Positions 2,922 to 17,394 of a DNA stretch of 31,092 bases are shown here, in pieces. Origin of the DNA: a virus. The notes beneath the pieces were generated by a model. It worked only from the letters and a program-made list of their open reading frames with translations. It had not been told where the DNA came from and did no database searches. The DNA lies in the IMG/VR virus record IMGVR_UViG_3300047499_000213, positions 1 to 31,092 of that record. The stretch is one strand, 5' to 3'. Both the position numbers and the translations under genes were made by a program. Within the stretch, counting starts at the first letter, position 1, and every line of letters starts with the position of its first letter.

Positions 2922-5900
2922 CGCTTCTGCTCGATCGTCTGGATCATCACGTTGGTGATCGGGAAGGTGAAAGTGGCTGAAGACGAATAGGTCCCGTAGC
3001 CGCTGAATTGCGCGCTGTAGGTGTGTTGGCCGGCCGGCGCGCTGTCGATCAGGTTCAGCGTCGCGCGGCCGCTGGTCCCCTGGTCGCCGACGAGATCCAT
3101 CTGGAATTCGCCGCCACCCAGCGGGCATGGCTGGCTGGCGATCAGCGTGTAGCTGCTCGTTGCATAGTCGAAGCGATAGACGTCGATCAGGATGCTTGCG
3201 GGCGCCCGATAGGGATAGGCGTTGATGCCGCCCGACGGCATCCCGCCCGGACTGATCGCATTTCCCGCCGTCACGGAGACCGTCACAGCGACGGGGTATC
3301 CGGCGGTCGTTATCGTCGGGCCGGTATAGTCGTAATTTCCGGTCGGCAGAATCCACTGATCGCTGTTGAAGACGGCGCTGAAACCGGTCGTGGTGACCGC
3401 GTTGCTGTTGATATTGCCGGTATCGACCAGGAGCGCCGCTGCGCTTGCCGGGCCGATCGCGCCGGATGGATTGCCGGAGGTGTCCAGGGCCTGGGCCCAA
3501 TAATAATAAGTCGTCCCCGGCGTCGCAGTGTGATCGGGATAACCCGTCGTCAGCGACTTATCGAGCAGCGATGCCGACCCGAATGTCGACGTCGCGCCGC
3601 GATAGATCAGGTAGACCGCGATGTCGTTGTCGGGCGATGCCGTCCAGCCCAGTGTGTTCAGCAGCACGCCGGCTGTCGCGGTCAGGCCGCTGGGCGCCGT
3701 CGGCGTGGCCGTCTTCCCGACGGTGGTCTGGTTGTCGATCTCATCCCAGGCCGAGAAGAACGGGCCGCCGGCAGGGCCAGCGCTTCGCACCGCGCGGACC
3801 CGGATGTCGTAGGCGATGCCGGTCTGGAGCGGCTTGATCTCCCATGCTGTCGTGCCGCTCTTCATGACGATGCTGGTGACGGTGCTGAGCGTCGACCATG
3901 AGGCGGCGTGCAGCTTGTATTGCAGCTCGTACTCGTCGAACAGGAGTTCGGGCGATGCCGTCCATGTCACCAGCGCCCAGCTCTGGATCGTGCCGTCGGA
4001 TTGCTGGTCATAGGACATCGTCACGCCGATGCCGGTCGGGGGCGCCACAGCCACGCCCGCGCCGGTGGGCGTGTAGGTATAGACCGGTATGCCGGCCAGC
4101 GATTCTTCGCCGCCGCCCCACGGGTTGAAGCTGGTGAACTTCAGGTAGAGCAGCTTGCCGACATAGGAGATCGGCGTGGTCGGCAGGTCGATCTTCAGGA
4201 TCGCGTCGTCCAGCCGGCAGAAGGTGGCGCCCGTGGCATGGGCGGCGCGGATCGAACCCAACTGGCCGCGGCGGAGGTATGTGCCGAGATTGTACTTGTA
4301 GGGCGCGGTCAGGGTCACAGCGCTGTAGCTGATGAGTTCTCCGTCGACACAGCAGAGCGTGCGGCCGTCGTCGGCATCGCCGGTCGTGCCGGCAGTCAGC
4401 GCGGCGAGGCTTTCGCTCAGATCGACGCTCAGCGTGTCGCTGGTGTCGGGGTCGCTGCCGGCGGGCAGGGCGGCGGTGAGGAAGCCCTGGCGGCACGGCG
4501 CGTCGATCGTGCCCATCAGGTCATAGGTCGAGCCGTCCAGCGACAGCCAGACATGGCAGCCGCCCCAGTTCGCCCCACCCGAGGCGCCGATCCAGATCTG
4601 CGGGTTCTGGTCGACGCCTTGCGCCAGCAAGGGCGGCGGCGGCTCATAAAAGAAGGGCGTGTTGATGCTGCCCGGCGCGGAGTTGTAGTTGACGGTGAAG
4701 GGCGCGCCGGCGGCGTAGCTGTAGAGCGGCGCCGCGCCGGTGCCGTCGATATACTCCTCGGCCGTGACCTTGATGTTGCCGCTGTCGTCCTCTTCGAGCG
4801 AGAGGATGCGAACCCACTGGTTGGCGAGGCCGAGGCCCGGATCGGAGATCTCGACGATATCCATCGGGTCGAGCAGGCAATACCGCCAGCCGAGCGTGAA
4901 GGTATACTGGTTGCGGACCGCCTGGCGCTGCAGCCGAAGCGTCGCCGCCATCGTCGCGGCGGACAGCACGCAGAAATGGTGCGATTGGGACGGCTGGTCG
5001 CCGCGCAGGCCGTAGGCCTCGATGGAGGCTTGGTCGCGCGATTCGACGATCTCGGCGTTGTACTGGTTGGTGCGGTTCAGCCACTCGACCTTGACCGAGT
5101 TCCAGGCGTCGGACGGCCGCTTGCGCGAGCACTGAACGGGATCGCCGTCGCCGGTGTCGATAAAATCGTTGTCGGCCAGGCTGTAGAGCGGCGCCGAGGG
5201 CGCGGTGTAGGTGGCGCCGTTGGCGCTGAGATTCTGGTCGCCGTAGGGGACGATCGTGAGCTCCGTCCCCGACCAGACGAATTCGGCGTTGCAGTCCTGG
5301 ACGATCTGGTTGAGCTGCGAGGCGGCGTCCTGCTGGGTGCTGAACAGCGGCGACACGACGAGACCCGCGGCGCGGCAGTAGCCCGAGAAGACCGACAGGT
5401 CGCCTAGCCGCGCAGACGGGAAGCCGACGCCGTAGCGCGGGTTGGTCAGGACATCGGTCACGACATCCTTGGGGTCCGCATCCGGCAGGCCCGCGATGGC
5501 GTTCGGGAACAGGCCGGTGACCTCGAACGAGAAGTTCGGGAGCTGGGCCGAATCCCCGAGATCGTAGCTCGCGGCGTAAACATAGGCGGTGCCGGCATAG
5601 GCCAGCGCCTTGGCCGGATGCTTGGTGGTCCAGGCGCCCCAGGGCGTTTGGGTCAAGCTGCCCGTCGCGAGGCCGAGGCCGGAGGACGAAAACAGGTTCT
5701 GCGACTTGGAGGAATAGTAGGTGTAGATGCCGCTGACCGGCCCTTCGCAGAGCGCGAAGATGAAGCTGGCCTTGTAGTCGGTGGTCGTGCCGCCGCTCTT
5801 GCCCCCGCCTCCGCCACCCTTGCCGCTGCTCGATGATTTCTGCTGGATGGCCTGGAAATCGTCATAGTCGGCCAGGTTGCCGACCATCCGGGTTTCGCCA

Positions 5901-13089: not shown

Positions 13090-13577
13090 GGCCCAAACCC
13101 TCCGGAGCTGAGCGCTCCAGCAAGGGCCGACGCGACGGCGGCGCGGATGTCGGGGGCGAGCTCGGCCAAGGCGCTGCGTAGGTAGGAATGCGCGGGATAG
13201 TCGACGTGGCGGTCGTGCGCCTTCACCGCGACCTGCACGGGTCGGATCGTGCGACCGAAGACCTGGCTTTGCTGCCGGAGGTAGGCACGGACGGATTCCG
13301 CGCCCTGGAAGCCATATTCCTGGAAGGCGGCGTAGGGCGTGTCAGCGGTTACGGTCGCTGTCAACGGGCCGGCGAGGTCGACATTGGCCGCGAGCGAGTC
13401 GCGCAACCGGCCGGAGCGGGCATTCAAGACATCGCCCGACAGGTTGCGCTGGGCGATTGCGAGAAGCCGGTCGGCGAGATCGGCGGAGACGGCTTCGAGC
13501 GCTGCCTCAGCCGCGGCCGTCAGGGCGGCGAGCCGGTCGGCGCCTTCGTCCGCGTTGGTCATGGTCGCGGCGATCAT
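13086..13577 (-). CDS. HK97 gp10-like neck protein
   Basis: A 163-aa protein. The helical N-terminus is followed by SGRLRDSLAANVDLAGPLTATVTADTPYAAFQEYG, the diagnostic region of the HK97 gp10-like family, and a C-terminal HSYLRSALAELAPDIRAAVASAL helix. It acts in head-tail joining. It overlaps the connector gene upstream and the tail terminator downstream by four bases each. MTNAD at 13562 is an alternative start five codons in. Confidence 0.82.
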   Translation of the reverse strand: MIAATMTNADEGADRLAALTAAAEAALEAVSADLADRLLAIAQRNLSGDVLNARSGRLRDSLAANVDLAGPLTATVTADTPYAAFQEYGFQGAESVRAYLRQQSQVFGRTIRPVQVAVKAHDRHVDYPAHSYLRSALAELAPDIRAAVASALAGALSSGGFGP

Positions 13578-14134
13578 GCGAGGGTGGCCCTGGCGTAGCG
13601 GGCGATAACGCTGGCGACGAAGGGGCTGACATCCTTCTGCGCGTAGGCGGTGGTGGCCATGCCGCCCATGCTTTCCGATACCTTGCCCAACCGGTCACGG
13701 CCGCGATAGCGCAGGCCGACCAGCTCCATCACTGCCTCGGCCACATCGGCGGGCGGGGCGGCATAGCCGGCGACATAGGTCACGGCGACGTTAGCCAGCG
13801 CCCGGTTGAACCAGTGGCCGAACAGCAGAACGATGTTGTTGTTGAGCCGCCAGCCGGATTGGCCGGGCGCGGTCGCCTGGGGTACCGTGATGCTGTCGAT
13901 GCTGAGCGACGTGACCGAGACGACCGGCGTGTTGCGCAGGTAGAGCCGGCCGTTGCCCTTGCCGTCATACAGCTCGCTGTAGGTTTGCTGGAGGATCGGC
14001 CGGGCGCAGGCGGTGACGAAGAAGGCGCTGGCGGCGGAGATCAGCCGCGACAGCACCGCGTCGTCGTTGGATTGCAGGTCGCCCCCGAGATAGGCTTTGA
14101 CGTCGGCGATGGAGACGAGATCGTTGGCGGCCAT
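13574..14134 (-). CDS. Head-tail connector protein (gp6-like)
   Basis: A 186-aa connector. MAANDLVSIADVKAYLGGDLQSNDDAVLSRLISAASAFFVTA is the typical helical start of the gp6-like connector family, and VSVTSLSIDSITVPQA with VAVTYVAGYAAPPADVAEAVMELVGLRYR is the conserved core. It attaches beneath the portal. GGAGA eight bases before the ATG supports the start. The normal neighbour, the capsid gene, is displaced by 1.7 kb because hipBA lies between them on the other strand. Confidence 0.82.
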   Translation of the reverse strand: MAANDLVSIADVKAYLGGDLQSNDDAVLSRLISAASAFFVTACARPILQQTYSELYDGKGNGRLYLRNTPVVSVTSLSIDSITVPQATAPGQSGWRLNNNIVLLFGHWFNRALANVAVTYVAGYAAPPADVAEAVMELVGLRYRGRDRLGKVSESMGGMATTAYAQKDVSPFVASVIARYARATLA

Positions 14135-14156
14135 GACGGTTCTCCAGTCTCTAAAT

Positions 14157-14255
14157 TATACGGATAAGAGTTTATTCCGGAATTATACGGATATTCGTAT
14201 AAAGATAAATTATGCGGATATTCGTATATTGAGATTTTATGCGGATAAGCGTATG
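14157..14255. promoter_or_regulatory. Four-copy 27-bp operator-like array upstream of hipBA
   Basis: Four 18-bp sites start at 14157, 14184, 14211 and 14238, exactly 27 bp apart. The second, TATACGGATATTCGTATA, is a dyad with arms TATACG/CGTATA. The third is TATGCGGATATTCGTATA, the fourth TATGCGGATAAGCGTATG, and the first retains only the left half (TATACGGATAAGAG). HipB-type regulators bind multiple GGATA-containing palindromes upstream of their own operon, so autoregulation by the product of 14279-14524 is likely. The array also covers the 5' leader region of the leftward connector gene. It is strikingly A+T-rich in a GC-rich setting. Confidence 0.8.
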
Positions 14256-14278
14256 CCGGTATCGAAGGAGCGCCCAAC

Positions 14279-14524
14279 TTGGAACAGCTCGTCCGCACCA
14301 TCGATCAGATCGGCAACGCCGTGCGGCGCCGCCGGAAAAGCCTGAAGCTGACCCAGCATCAGCTTTGCGAGATGTCCGGCCTCAGGCAAGCCACGATCTC
14401 CAGCCTTGAGGCTGGAGACAGCGGCGCGCGGCTGAAGACGCTACTGGACGTACTCAGCGCTCTCGACCTCGAACTGGTGGTCAGGGAGCGCACGAAGGGT
14501 CCCAGGATCGAAGACATCTTTTGA
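14279..14524 (+). CDS. hipB: HipB-like antitoxin / XRE regulator
   Basis: An 81-aa helix-turn-helix protein. Residues about 12-65 form an XRE domain (IGNAVRRRRKSLKLTQHQLCEMSGLRQATISSLEAGDSG...LKTLLDVLSALDLEL). The start is a TTG at 14279 with AAGGAG eight bases upstream; there is no in-frame ATG. As antitoxin it should bind the HipA-like kinase and repress the operon through the palindromes at 14157-14255. The stop overlaps the hipA ATG (TGATG), so translation is coupled. It lies opposite to the phage structural genes, as a cargo pair. Confidence 0.88.
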   Translation: MEQLVRTIDQIGNAVRRRRKSLKLTQHQLCEMSGLRQATISSLEAGDSGARLKTLLDVLSALDLELVVRERTKGPRIEDIF

Positions 14525-15813
14525 TGGCCAGGAGACACGACGCGCTGCATGTCCTGCTGAACGGGCGGGTTACGGGGCGGCTCATGCGCGAGAAGAGCGG
14601 GGCCGTCACCTTCCGGTACGATCCGTCCTGGTTGGACTGGCAATACACTATGCCGGTGTCGCTTTCGCTGCCGTTGCGCGCGGACCCGTATACGGGCGCC
14701 ATCGTCAGCACGGTGTTCGACAATCTGCTGCCCGACAGTACCGAGATCAGACGGCATATCGCCGAACGGACCGGGGCGGCGGGAACGGATGCCTATAGCC
14801 TCTTGGACGCTATCGGGCGGGACTGCGTCGGGGCGCTCCAGTTCATTCCGGACGGAATCAGCCCCGGCGACAGCACAGCCATCCGCGGCCGACCGATCGA
14901 CGATGCGAAGATCGAAGAGATTATCCTCAATCTCGGTCGGGCGCCCTTGGGCACCGACCTTGCGGATTTTCGCATCTCGATCGCCGGCGTCCAGGAGAAG
15001 ACCGCGCTTCTGAGACGCGGCGGGCGCTGGGAAATCCCGGAGCAGGCGACGCCGACGACGCATATCCTGAAACCGGCGATTGGCCGGTTGGCCAATGGGC
15101 TCGATCTGACACGGAGTGTGGAGAACGAGCATTTCTGCCTCACCTTCCTAGCCAATCTGGGCATTCCGGCGGCGCGGAGCGAGATCGCGACATTCGGCAA
15201 GACGCGCGTCCTGGTGGTGGATCGCTTCGACCGAATCCTTTCCGGCGACCGGCTGGTCCGTCGCCCGCAAGAGGATATGTGCCAAGCGCTGGGCGTACCC
15301 TGGACCCGCAAATACGAGAATGAAGGCGGCCCCGGCATCGTTCGCATTCTCGACTTGCTGCGGGCAAGCGACGAGGCGGCTGCCGACCGGAAACGCTTCC
15401 TCATGGCCCAGATCCTGTTCTGGCTTCTGGGCGCGACGGATGGGCACGCCAAGAATTTCAGCATTCACCTGTCCCCGGCGGGACGATTCACCCTGACGCC
15501 GCTCTACGACGTTCTATCGGCGCAGCCTAATGTCGATGCGCGGCAGATTCGGGATAACCGCTTCACGCTGGCGATGGCTGTCGGCGACAATCGGCATTAC
15601 GCGGTGAACGGCATCACGCCGCGCCATTACCGCCAGGTTGCCGATGCGGCCGGGATGCCGGGCAGCACCGTCGACGAAATTTTTGCCGATCTCGTCGACG
15701 CCGTGCCCGGCGCCCTGCATCGAACGATCGCGGCGATGCCGGCGGACTTCCCGGCTTCCATAGCCGAATCAATCGCGGCCGGCGTCGCCAGGCGTCTCAG
15801 CCTGGCGACGTGA
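14524..15813 (+). CDS. hipA: HipA-like serine/threonine kinase toxin
   Basis: A 429-aa protein, close to full length for HipA. The N-terminal subdomain (LHVLLNGRVTGRLMREKSG...FDNLLPD) is followed by the P-loop-like RISIAGVQEKTALLR, whose Ser152 matches the autophosphorylated Ser of E. coli HipA, then THILKP. The catalytic segment is LLGATDGHAKNFSIHL and the metal segment LTPLYDVLSA. E. coli HipA inactivates glutamyl-tRNA synthetase by phosphorylation and causes growth arrest; the target here is unknown. I chose the ATG that overlaps the hipB stop; a TTG one codon earlier also fits. No inactivating lesion is seen. It ends 17 bases before the end of the convergent capsid gene. Confidence 0.9.
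   Translation: MARRHDALHVLLNGRVTGRLMREKSGAVTFRYDPSWLDWQYTMPVSLSLPLRADPYTGAIVSTVFDNLLPDSTEIRRHIAERTGAAGTDAYSLLDAIGRDCVGALQFIPDGISPGDSTAIRGRPIDDAKIEEIILNLGRAPLGTDLADFRISIAGVQEKTALLRRGGRWEIPEQATPTTHILKPAIGRLANGLDLTRSVENEHFCLTFLANLGIPAARSEIATFGKTRVLVVDRFDRILSGDRLVRRPQEDMCQALGVPWTRKYENEGGPGIVRILDLLRASDEAAADRKRFLMAQILFWLLGATDGHAKNFSIHLSPAGRFTLTPLYDVLSAQPNVDARQIRDNRFTLAMAVGDNRHYAVNGITPRHYRQVADAAGMPGSTVDEIFADLVDAVPGALHRTIAAMPADFPASIAESIAAGVARRLSLAT
15783..15810. terminator. Perfect hairpin between convergent hipA and capsid genes
   Basis: CGTCGCCAGGC (15783-15793) and GCCTGGCGACG (15800-15810) are perfect 11-bp inverted arms around a 6-nt loop, inside the last codons of hipA. There is no clear U-tract in either direction. 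It could act as a transcript-end stem or barrier between the convergent genes. Confidence 0.5.
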
Positions 15814-15829: not shown

Positions 15830-17317
15830 TCAGCCGTTGGCGATGTTGGAGATGACGCCCATGGCGAAGGGGGCGTAGACCGCGAGGACTTCCTCGGCGT
15901 AGACGCCGAATTCGTAGGCGCGGGTCTTGAGCGGCCAGTCCATCCGGTAATAATCGCGGCGGGTTTTCACCTCGGCGACGTTTGGCACGTTGGAGGACTG
16001 GTACTGCGCCGGCAGGTTTTCGGCCCAGCCGATGACGGTGCCCGGCGGGACGAAGGGGTGGATCTTGACCGGGATCTTGTAGCCGCCGTCGAGCGCGAAC
16101 GGGTTGTAGTAATATTCGACCACGCCGTTGGCGACGATGGCGAACGGATCTTGCCCGTCTGTGGTGTAGCGCAGCAGCGGCGCGGACGCGGCGTTCAGCA
16201 CCTTGTTGGTGATGTTCCGCTGCTCCTGGCTATTGACGTAGAGCACGGTCGGGCTGACCTGGTAGTTGTCCCACATCTTTTCCAGCATCTGGTCGATCTC
16301 GTTGACCGAGCCGCGACCCGACGCCGTGAGTGCCGTACCCGTGCCGGCCGCGCCGGTGGCGAGATAGTTCACATAGGCGCCGGCGCTGGGCTTGAGCGCG
16401 GAGGTGAGCAACCCGTCATAGGCGAGGCCGGGATTGGCCGAGCAGTCGGCGGTGACGGCGGTCGCCGCCTGGGTGGAGGAGCTGAGCGGGGCCGAGAAGG
16501 CGGCGCTGTTGATCGTGGTGATCGCCTGCAGCTTTTCCGAGCCCGCCGTGCCGACGAACCAGGCATAGCCGACCGCCCCTGTCACCGCCGGGACCGTGGC
16601 CGACAGCGTCTGGCCGAGCGTCACCGCCTGGATGGCGTTGGCAGAGGGGGCGGACGAACCGCCGTTGAGCGTGAAGCTGTTGCCGTCGGCGCCGGAGATC
16701 GATTTGGAGGTGGCGACGCCGGCGGCGAGGCTGGAGTTGCGGTAGCCCTCATAGGTCAGCGCCACGACGATGACGGAGTAGGTCGCGGCCGGCAGGGTGG
16801 CGCCCGAACCGGCGGCGGCGAGCGTGGGCGTGGCGGGCGTGCCGAGCTGGAGGCTGCCGTTGCCGCCCAGGAAGGCGTTTTCCTCCTTCAGCATCATTTT
16901 CTGCAGCAGGCGCATGGTGGCGGTGGCCTGGATATCCTCGAAGCCCTGCGCGGCGGAGACCGCTTCGAAGGTCACCGAATCCTCCTCGCCCACCGTGGCG
17001 TAGGAGGCCGAGCGGGTGGAAGTGGCGTAGCTCATGCGGCCGGAGCGCTGGCCTTCCGGCACCCAGCCCATCGCATCCCAGCCGGAGCCGATAATGGCGT
17101 TCACCTGCCGCCAGTTAGTGGCGGTGCCGGTGCCGCCGCCGACGCGCGGCAGCACGTTGCGGATCGGCGTCGCCGCCGGGTAGAGGTTCTTGGCCGAGGC
17201 CTGCAGGTCATAGGCGACGAGGCCGGTCGCGGTGTTGACCGATTTGCTCATCGGTTCGCCGCGGGACAGCTCATCCTTGAGCAGCGCCAGGGTTTCGGCG
17301 GTTGTCGGTCCATTCAT
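15830..17317 (-). CDS. Major capsid protein (HK97 fold) with Ig-like insertion
   Basis: A 495-aa capsid protein. I chose the ATG at 17317 because GGAG lies nine bases upstream; a longer form at 17332 overlaps that site. The N-terminal arm and spine (NLYPAATPIRNVLPRVGG...WRQVNAI) and the C-terminal part (MWDNYQVSPTVLYVNSQEQRNITNKVL; VEVKTRRDYYRMDWPLKTRAYEFGVYAEEVLAVYAP-like end) are typical of HK97-fold capsids. Between about residues 160 and 285 a beta-rich insert reads as a fibronectin/Ig-like domain (TYSVIVVALTYEGYRNSS; ATVPAVTGAVGYAWFVGTAGSEKL). It probably projects from the capsid surface. Unlike related phages, the following connector gene is separated from it by hipBA. Confidence 0.85.
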   Translation of the reverse strand: MNGPTTAETLALLKDELSRGEPMSKSVNTATGLVAYDLQASAKNLYPAATPIRNVLPRVGGGTGTATNWRQVNAIIGSGWDAMGWVPEGQRSGRMSYATSTRSASYATVGEEDSVTFEAVSAAQGFEDIQATATMRLLQKMMLKEENAFLGGNGSLQLGTPATPTLAAAGSGATLPAATYSVIVVALTYEGYRNSSLAAGVATSKSISGADGNSFTLNGGSSAPSANAIQAVTLGQTLSATVPAVTGAVGYAWFVGTAGSEKLQAITTINSAAFSAPLSSSTQAATAVTADCSANPGLAYDGLLTSALKPSAGAYVNYLATGAAGTGTALTASGRGSVNEIDQMLEKMWDNYQVSPTVLYVNSQEQRNITNKVLNAASAPLLRYTTDGQDPFAIVANGVVEYYYNPFALDGGYKIPVKIHPFVPPGTVIGWAENLPAQYQSSNVPNVAEVKTRRDYYRMDWPLKTRAYEFGVYAEEVLAVYAPFAMGVISNIANG

Positions 17318-17394
17318 GTTCGAAGGCTCCATCTAAAAAGGGACGGGACGCCGTCGCGGCGTTCCATTCGCCTTGCCCAAGGGCGCGTTGAATG

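Follow-up and report, generated by a model that had tools for sequence, protein, structure and literature searches.

An array of four 18-bp dyads, placed at steps of exactly 27 bp in front of a hipB-hipA operon, is very probably the autoregulatory operator of a phage-borne hipBA cassette, in which contact between HipBA complexes would set the spacing. The array was found in the window, which here means the whole 31,092-nucleotide stretch of viral DNA that was analysed. This reading is based on the array itself, its exact period, its conservation before other hipBA operons, the covariation of its half-sites with the HipB recognition helix, and its movement together with hipBA. The array widens the picture of HipB autoregulation to a geometry of 27-28 bp that hardly varies among several phyla, and dyad pairs of the same geometry were also uncovered in unrelated viral contigs without hipA, where they may serve as decoys for the HipBA of the host.

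The probable operator array and the hipBA cassette of the window

The array occupies AT-rich DNA that separates a leftward head-tail adaptor gene from the rightward hipB-hipA operon, and forms a 29% GC island in surrounding DNA of ~65% GC (Table 1). Scanning of the 31-kb window with the consensus TATACG-N6-CGTATA at ≤3 mismatches gave six matches, all of them in the array, where shuffled sequences expect 0.02; a chance origin was ruled out by the shuffles together with the control motifs given below. The coordinates agree with the original prediction of four 18-bp sites with an exact 27-bp period, all carrying CGGATA, and with its choice of the inner two as the best dyads.

Table 1. Features of the hipBA cassette and its flanks (positions in the window)
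Feature	Position	Strand	Description
Head-tail adaptor gene	13574..14134	-	phrog_442 3.3e-30; phage backbone, outside the module
Operator site 1, distal	14157-14174		TATACGGATAAGAGTTTA; 10/12, right arm degraded
Operator site 2	14184-14201		TATACGGATATTCGTATA; 12/12, full dyad, matched on both strands
Operator site 3	14211-14228		TATGCGGATATTCGTATA; 11/12
Operator site 4, proximal to hipB	14238-14255		TATGCGGATAAGCGTATG; 10/12
Candidate -35 hexamer for hipBA	14229..14234	+	TTGAGA; between sites 3 and 4
Candidate -10, weak	14252-14257	+	TATGCC; overlaps right arm, site 4
Probable hipB ribosome-binding site	14265..14270	+	AAGGAG; 8 bases 5' of the TTG start
hipB	14279..14524	+	81 aa, TTG start; Pfam HTH_3 5.6e-11; recognition helix LRQATISSLE
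hipA	14524..15813	+	429 aa; Pfam Couple_hipA 1.4e-26, HipA_C 2.8e-50
Backbone gene (phrog_13692)	15830..17332	-	phrog_13692 5e-108; function not assigned; far side of hipBA

The viral contigs L006, L007/L008 and L009, whose HipA is 68-70% identical, carry the hipBA operon with four sites at exactly 27 bp as well, in which nearly all half-site letters are intact and the cores and spacers are different. The conserved unit is therefore the dyad and not CGGATA: the latter is indeed present in all four window sites, but its last letters fall in the variable core, and it was ruled out as a conserved element as the letters after CG differ among the relatives. The homologues of sites 1 and 4 are 12/12 in L006, L007 and L009, and the sequences indicate that the outer sites of the window are weakened copies of these.

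The operon fits the hipBA type II toxin-antitoxin module, with a small HTH gene directly 5' of a HipA kinase gene and, in front of hipB, palindromic operators whose spacing is conserved; the hipA ATG overlaps the hipB stop codon. L006, L007 and L009 have a similar GGAAAGGAG and a TTG start for hipB. Of 34 TATACG-type hipBA arrays, 17 have a proximal spacer that opens with TTGA, vs 0/45 other spacers, and the window spacer before the last site is TTGAGATTT. A strict sigma-70 consensus scan of 13900-14600 on both strands found no promoter, so the position of the hipBA promoter is one that we infer; with its -35 in the last spacer and its -10 in the last dyad, repression by occupancy would be explained.

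The adaptor gene and the phrog_13692 gene together bracket the hipBA insertion, and the insertion point was compared in 80 viral relatives of the latter. In the closest phage relatives, 66 bp lie between these two genes, with neither hipBA nor the array, and among all 80 the array is present only together with hipBA; the two therefore make up, on the evidence of these sequences, one inserted cassette. At the same insertion point, L433 has a 917-bp gap (4372-5289) with a partial HipA match (42%), which is perhaps a decaying hipBA cassette.

Conserved spacing and changing half-sites among hipBA operons

Comparison of the upstream regions of homologous hipBA operons, named beforehand as a test that might refute the original prediction, found both motif and spacing present, and so bore out the view of the array as an operator for the adjacent HipB, whose binding is predicted. 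A motif scan of 80 genome loci with HipA 51-60% identical gave 27-bp steps, with a few at 26, 54 and 53. In a motif-free survey, pairs of like-armed dyads were sought upstream of hipA at lags of 18 to 60 in 91 hipBA operons (HipA <80% identical), and the best lag was 27 in 56, 54 in nine and 28 in eight. A score of >=22, which 1/273 shuffles reach, was obtained by 62 operons, with 44 at 27, six at 54 and six at 28. TATACG pairs occur in only 3/385 alphaproteobacterial genomes in a search that ignored hipA, and all precede hipA with a spacing of 27 or 26 bp; among 41 Caulobacter-genus genomes they occur in five, with sites at 27 bp, and every stretch checked encodes HipA. As far as sequence comparison can tell, the 27-bp spacing is clearly under selection. 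It is not universal, since the E. coli K-12 hipBA operators are spaced 28/39/28 bp and a gammaproteobacterial HipA group (L234, L237, L240, L241, L242, L256, L262) has dyads of TTCCCG/CGGGAA type 47-50 bp apart.

The half-sites themselves vary widely among hipBA operons, including TATACG, TATGAT, TATGCG, TATACC, TAGGCG, TATCC and AACAGC, in simple correspondence with residues of the HipB helix: RQ[A/G]T goes with TATACG, KQ[A/S]T with TATCC, WQET with TATGAT, and RQET with TATGCG or TATGTG. The association of helix A/G/S vs E with a fourth half-site letter A vs G gave a Fisher p of 3e-7, with counts taken by hand from the helix table and kinship ignored. As the half-site letters change with the HipB helix, the geometry is more conserved than the sequence. 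The window helix LRQATIS agrees with TATACG half-sites. That the dyad differs from the E. coli operator TATCC-N8-GGATA, as had been proposed, was confirmed: the window sites do not qualify as E. coli-type HipB operators, and the helix is of the RQAT rather than the KQAT kind. A phage cI/Cro operator region was likewise ruled out, as the HTH gene next to the array encodes HipB and leads into hipA, and the site class follows HipB.

In the proposed mechanism, HipB dimers, normally as HipB2HipA2, would occupy each 18-bp dyad, and their presence on the promoter, which would be contained in the proximal spacer, would repress hipBA. The 27-28 bp step would be accounted for because contact between neighbouring complexes would require a fixed distance. 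At 10.5 bp per turn, a 27-bp step sets neighbours ~206 degrees apart, and HipBA complexes next to one another, bound to almost opposite faces of the DNA, most likely must touch, which would lead to cooperative binding with HipA kept inactive on the DNA. This contact is extrapolated from E. coli, in which HipB binds the 28-bp O1O2 pair with a Kd of 0.6 nM and the operator is bent 70 degrees by HipBA (PMC3376134), in which HipA dimerises in operator complexes (PMC7029023), and for which HipA-HipA contacts on the promoter are proposed. G22S, the hipA7 change, is believed to interfere with HipA dimerisation inside the HipA/HipB/operator complexes (PMC7029023). The original prediction had counted 27 bp as about 2.6 turns and expected wrapping or bending; the placement of neighbours on different faces held, but wrapping seems less likely, as with an offset of ~206 degrees the bends would alternate and a zig-zag would fit better. 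Against the autoregulatory reading stand the degraded sites 1 and 4, the hipBA promoter that is weak by consensus, and the different spacings in K-12 and the gammaproteobacterial group.

Two other readings of the window array were considered. The array directly adjoins the adaptor gene, and the original prediction suggested that the antitoxin might influence late phage genes; the array could then be older than hipBA and serve the phage in controlling its leftward head genes. This is very unlikely, as the closest phages lack hipBA and the array alike and keep just the 66 bp between the flanking genes, no promoter was found in 13900-14600, and chromosomal and plasmid hipBA loci have the same comb in front; a late-gene role is thus unsupported, and the array may at most affect the adaptor gene incidentally. 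The dyads could also be recombination sites or RNA hairpins instead of protein operators, since they are palindromic, lie at mosaic junctions in lambdoid phages, and form between neighbours a CGTATA-N9-TATACG that is faintly loxP-like in its inner part. The change of half-sites with the HipB helix at constant spacing, the TATCC and TATGAT classes that share the spacing with no loxP likeness, and a window stretch in which no terminator was found leave this reading scarcely credible.

Dyad pairs in viral contigs without hipA

Scanning of IMG/VR for two TATACG dyads at any gap of 0-30 returned 56 stretches, 55 of them with exactly 27 bp, each holding one pair or triple. They fall in about 29 unrelated clusters, whose independence was assessed by blastn of 2 kb, and 28 unrelated viral clusters carry, without hipA, orphan pairs of TATACG-N6-CGTATA spaced exactly 27 bp (L096, L104, L106, L107, L110, L113-L117, L124, L132, L141, L149, L159, L166, L169, L171, L173, L174, L178, L181, L191, L193-L195, L199, L201). 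Pairs of the E. coli type TATCC-N8-GGATA were found in at least 120 stretches (L264-L383; at least 125 pairs), and among the matches listed 90/125 are spaced 28 and 28/125 are spaced 27, together 118/125; one of the stretches listed has a detected hipA, and a further one, L300, carries the K-12 hipBA operators themselves. A TATGAT class, which the HipB helix WQET in Rhodobacteraceae-type operons had led us to predict, gave nine stretches, none with hipA, of which eight have TATGAT-N6-ATCATA pairs at 27 bp (L497-L503, L505). Of the permuted-motif controls, TACGAT yielded one pair, at 24, with no peak at 27/28, and TCATC yielded nine pairs spread over 18-47 with none at 27 or 28. Rare pairs with other spacings (38, 35, 30 and 31 bp) were seen in L504 (7278-7333), L263 (556-608), L272, L291 and L379, and the spacers of the last three hold TTGAC-like letters and may be promoters.

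HipA_C is missing from 28/29 TATACG representative records and from another 29/29 records, many of the records in both sets being fragments. The TTGA spacer is found in 0/28 orphan pairs on either strand vs 17/34 hipBA arrays (p 5e-6, phylogeny ignored), so the orphan pairs do not represent hipBA-type promoters. They are also unlikely to be remnants of hipBA operons, having no TTGA spacer and lying in unrelated contexts. Although the search imposed neither letter, their cores favour C first and G last, like those of hipBA arrays. HTH_3 was detected in 7/31 orphan records, many of which are fragments, and no phage-encoded HipB reader was seen among these matches; the RQ[A/G]T helix occurs in the hit loci only in the hipBA-bearing L158.

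Most orphan pairs lie outside plausible genes, between phage tRNA genes, after terminators, near lysis genes or in tmRNA genes, with a few in long open frames (L181, L201, L303). In permuted tmRNA genes the pair sits inside the intervening segment, at 2213-2257 of L115, 6591-6635 of L141, 2087-2131 of L142 and 111-155 of L145. Among named phages, HK97 (NC_002167) has a TATCC-type pair at 38898-38943 with one mismatch, and mEp460, mEp237, HK620, Sf6, YDC107_1, 2B8, PhiR55_1 and PhiR49_1 are carriers as well. Across lambdoid phages and related prophages, NC_019716 (43966-44011) and NC_019704 (42830-42875) among them, such pairs are spaced 28 (or 27) bp and occur without hipA. In the HK97 family the array marks a mosaic junction, and the sequence to its right switches between two contexts at the array end. 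Lambda, phi80, HK225, N15, P22, P1, T4, N4 and P2 contain no 28-bp TATCC pair at <=3 mismatches. The Caulobacter phage carriers are CcrBL9, CcrSC, RB23, BL47 and J4. In the giant Caulobacter phages CcrBL9 (NC_048047, ~89285-89359) and RB23 (MZ574433), the pair lies between the tRNA-Ile and tRNA-Val genes, and in both CcrBL9 and CcrSC a third site follows 30 bp further on. Between CcrBL9 and RB23, the latter found by flank similarity, 0/24 half-site letters differ vs 9/21 other positions (p 3e-4, phylogeny likewise ignored). For two of the carriers, the pair can be set beside a host: the HK97 class fits the TATCC at 28 bp of E. coli K-12 and the CcrBL9 class the TATACG at 27 bp of the Caulobacter genus. 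Both of these phages propagate on laboratory strains.

The preferred function of the orphan pairs, with roughly even chances of being correct, is that of DNA decoys which dock host HipBA and keep the toxin quiet during infection, in unrelated phages that include HK97 and the giant Caulobacter phages. Multiplying phage DNA would offer many copies of a two-site docking unit and capture host HipB2HipA2, and docking would shield HipB from Lon and park inactive HipA on DNA, whereby the phage would be protected from HipA-driven translation arrest. Exact geometry, class-specific half-sites, the lack of a toxin gene and promoter, and scattered, mostly non-coding placement would fit such a unit, as would a TATGAT class found at the predicted spacing, permuted controls with no pair there, and half-sites kept between CcrBL9 and RB23 while core and spacer diverge. 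Operator DNA is reported to slow the Lon degradation of HipB (PMC3376134), and phage defence involving HipA-family kinases has been reported (PMC13092281). Titration could equally derepress hipBA and give more HipA, however, and the nine phages without a 28-bp TATCC pair, the fragmentary state of many carrier records and the mostly unnamed hosts also weigh against decoys. The main rival, a distinctly less probable one, is that the pairs are genuine operators that place a nearby phage gene under the control of host HipB, so that the phage senses HipBA status. Some pairs do lie just upstream of genes, as in L104 and in HK97, where a DUF2560-type frame begins a few bases on. Against regulation of this kind, the neighbour genes differ between clusters, many pairs follow terminators or sit in tRNA arrays or within permuted tmRNA genes, the spacer has no -35, and the downstream sequence of the HK97 family switches at the array end.

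A search of the literature available found no paper linking HipB operators to phage decoys or describing such elements. If they are decoys, they would represent a DNA-based counter-defence of 45 bp, invisible to gene-centred annotation. Deletion of hipBA in E. coli has little phenotype, which is an old puzzle, and a conflict with phages would help to explain it if the decoy function is right.

Comparison with known systems

Phage decoys against toxin-antitoxin defence have a precedent in the pseudo-ToxI RNA of phage phiTE. In that case, too, the antitoxin side of a host module is imitated by the phage, but phiTE does so with an RNA antitoxin mimic, whereas the orphan pairs would act as a DNA operator decoy.

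The window array resembles O1-O4 of E. coli K-12 in its 18-bp dyads, its multi-site arrangement before hipB and its Q-x-T helix, and the pair spacing of 28 bp there is close in kind, while K-12 differs in its TATCC half-site, its KQAT helix and its 28/39/28 arrangement rather than an even 27-bp comb. Legionella hipBST likewise has a HipB-type antitoxin and three upstream operators, with larger spacing and conserved cores (PMC10653801), and differs further in its split kinase. The hipBA1 and hipBA2 promoters of C. crescentus are similar to the window in their three reported palindromic operators (PMC8545095) and in identical inverted repeats whose intervals agree with the E. coli complex (PMC7029023). 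The likeness in letters, TATACG at 27 bp, comes from Caulobacter-genus genomes, the CB15 operators being known here by description, and hipBA1 and hipBA2 are chromosomal, unlike the phage-borne cassette of the window.
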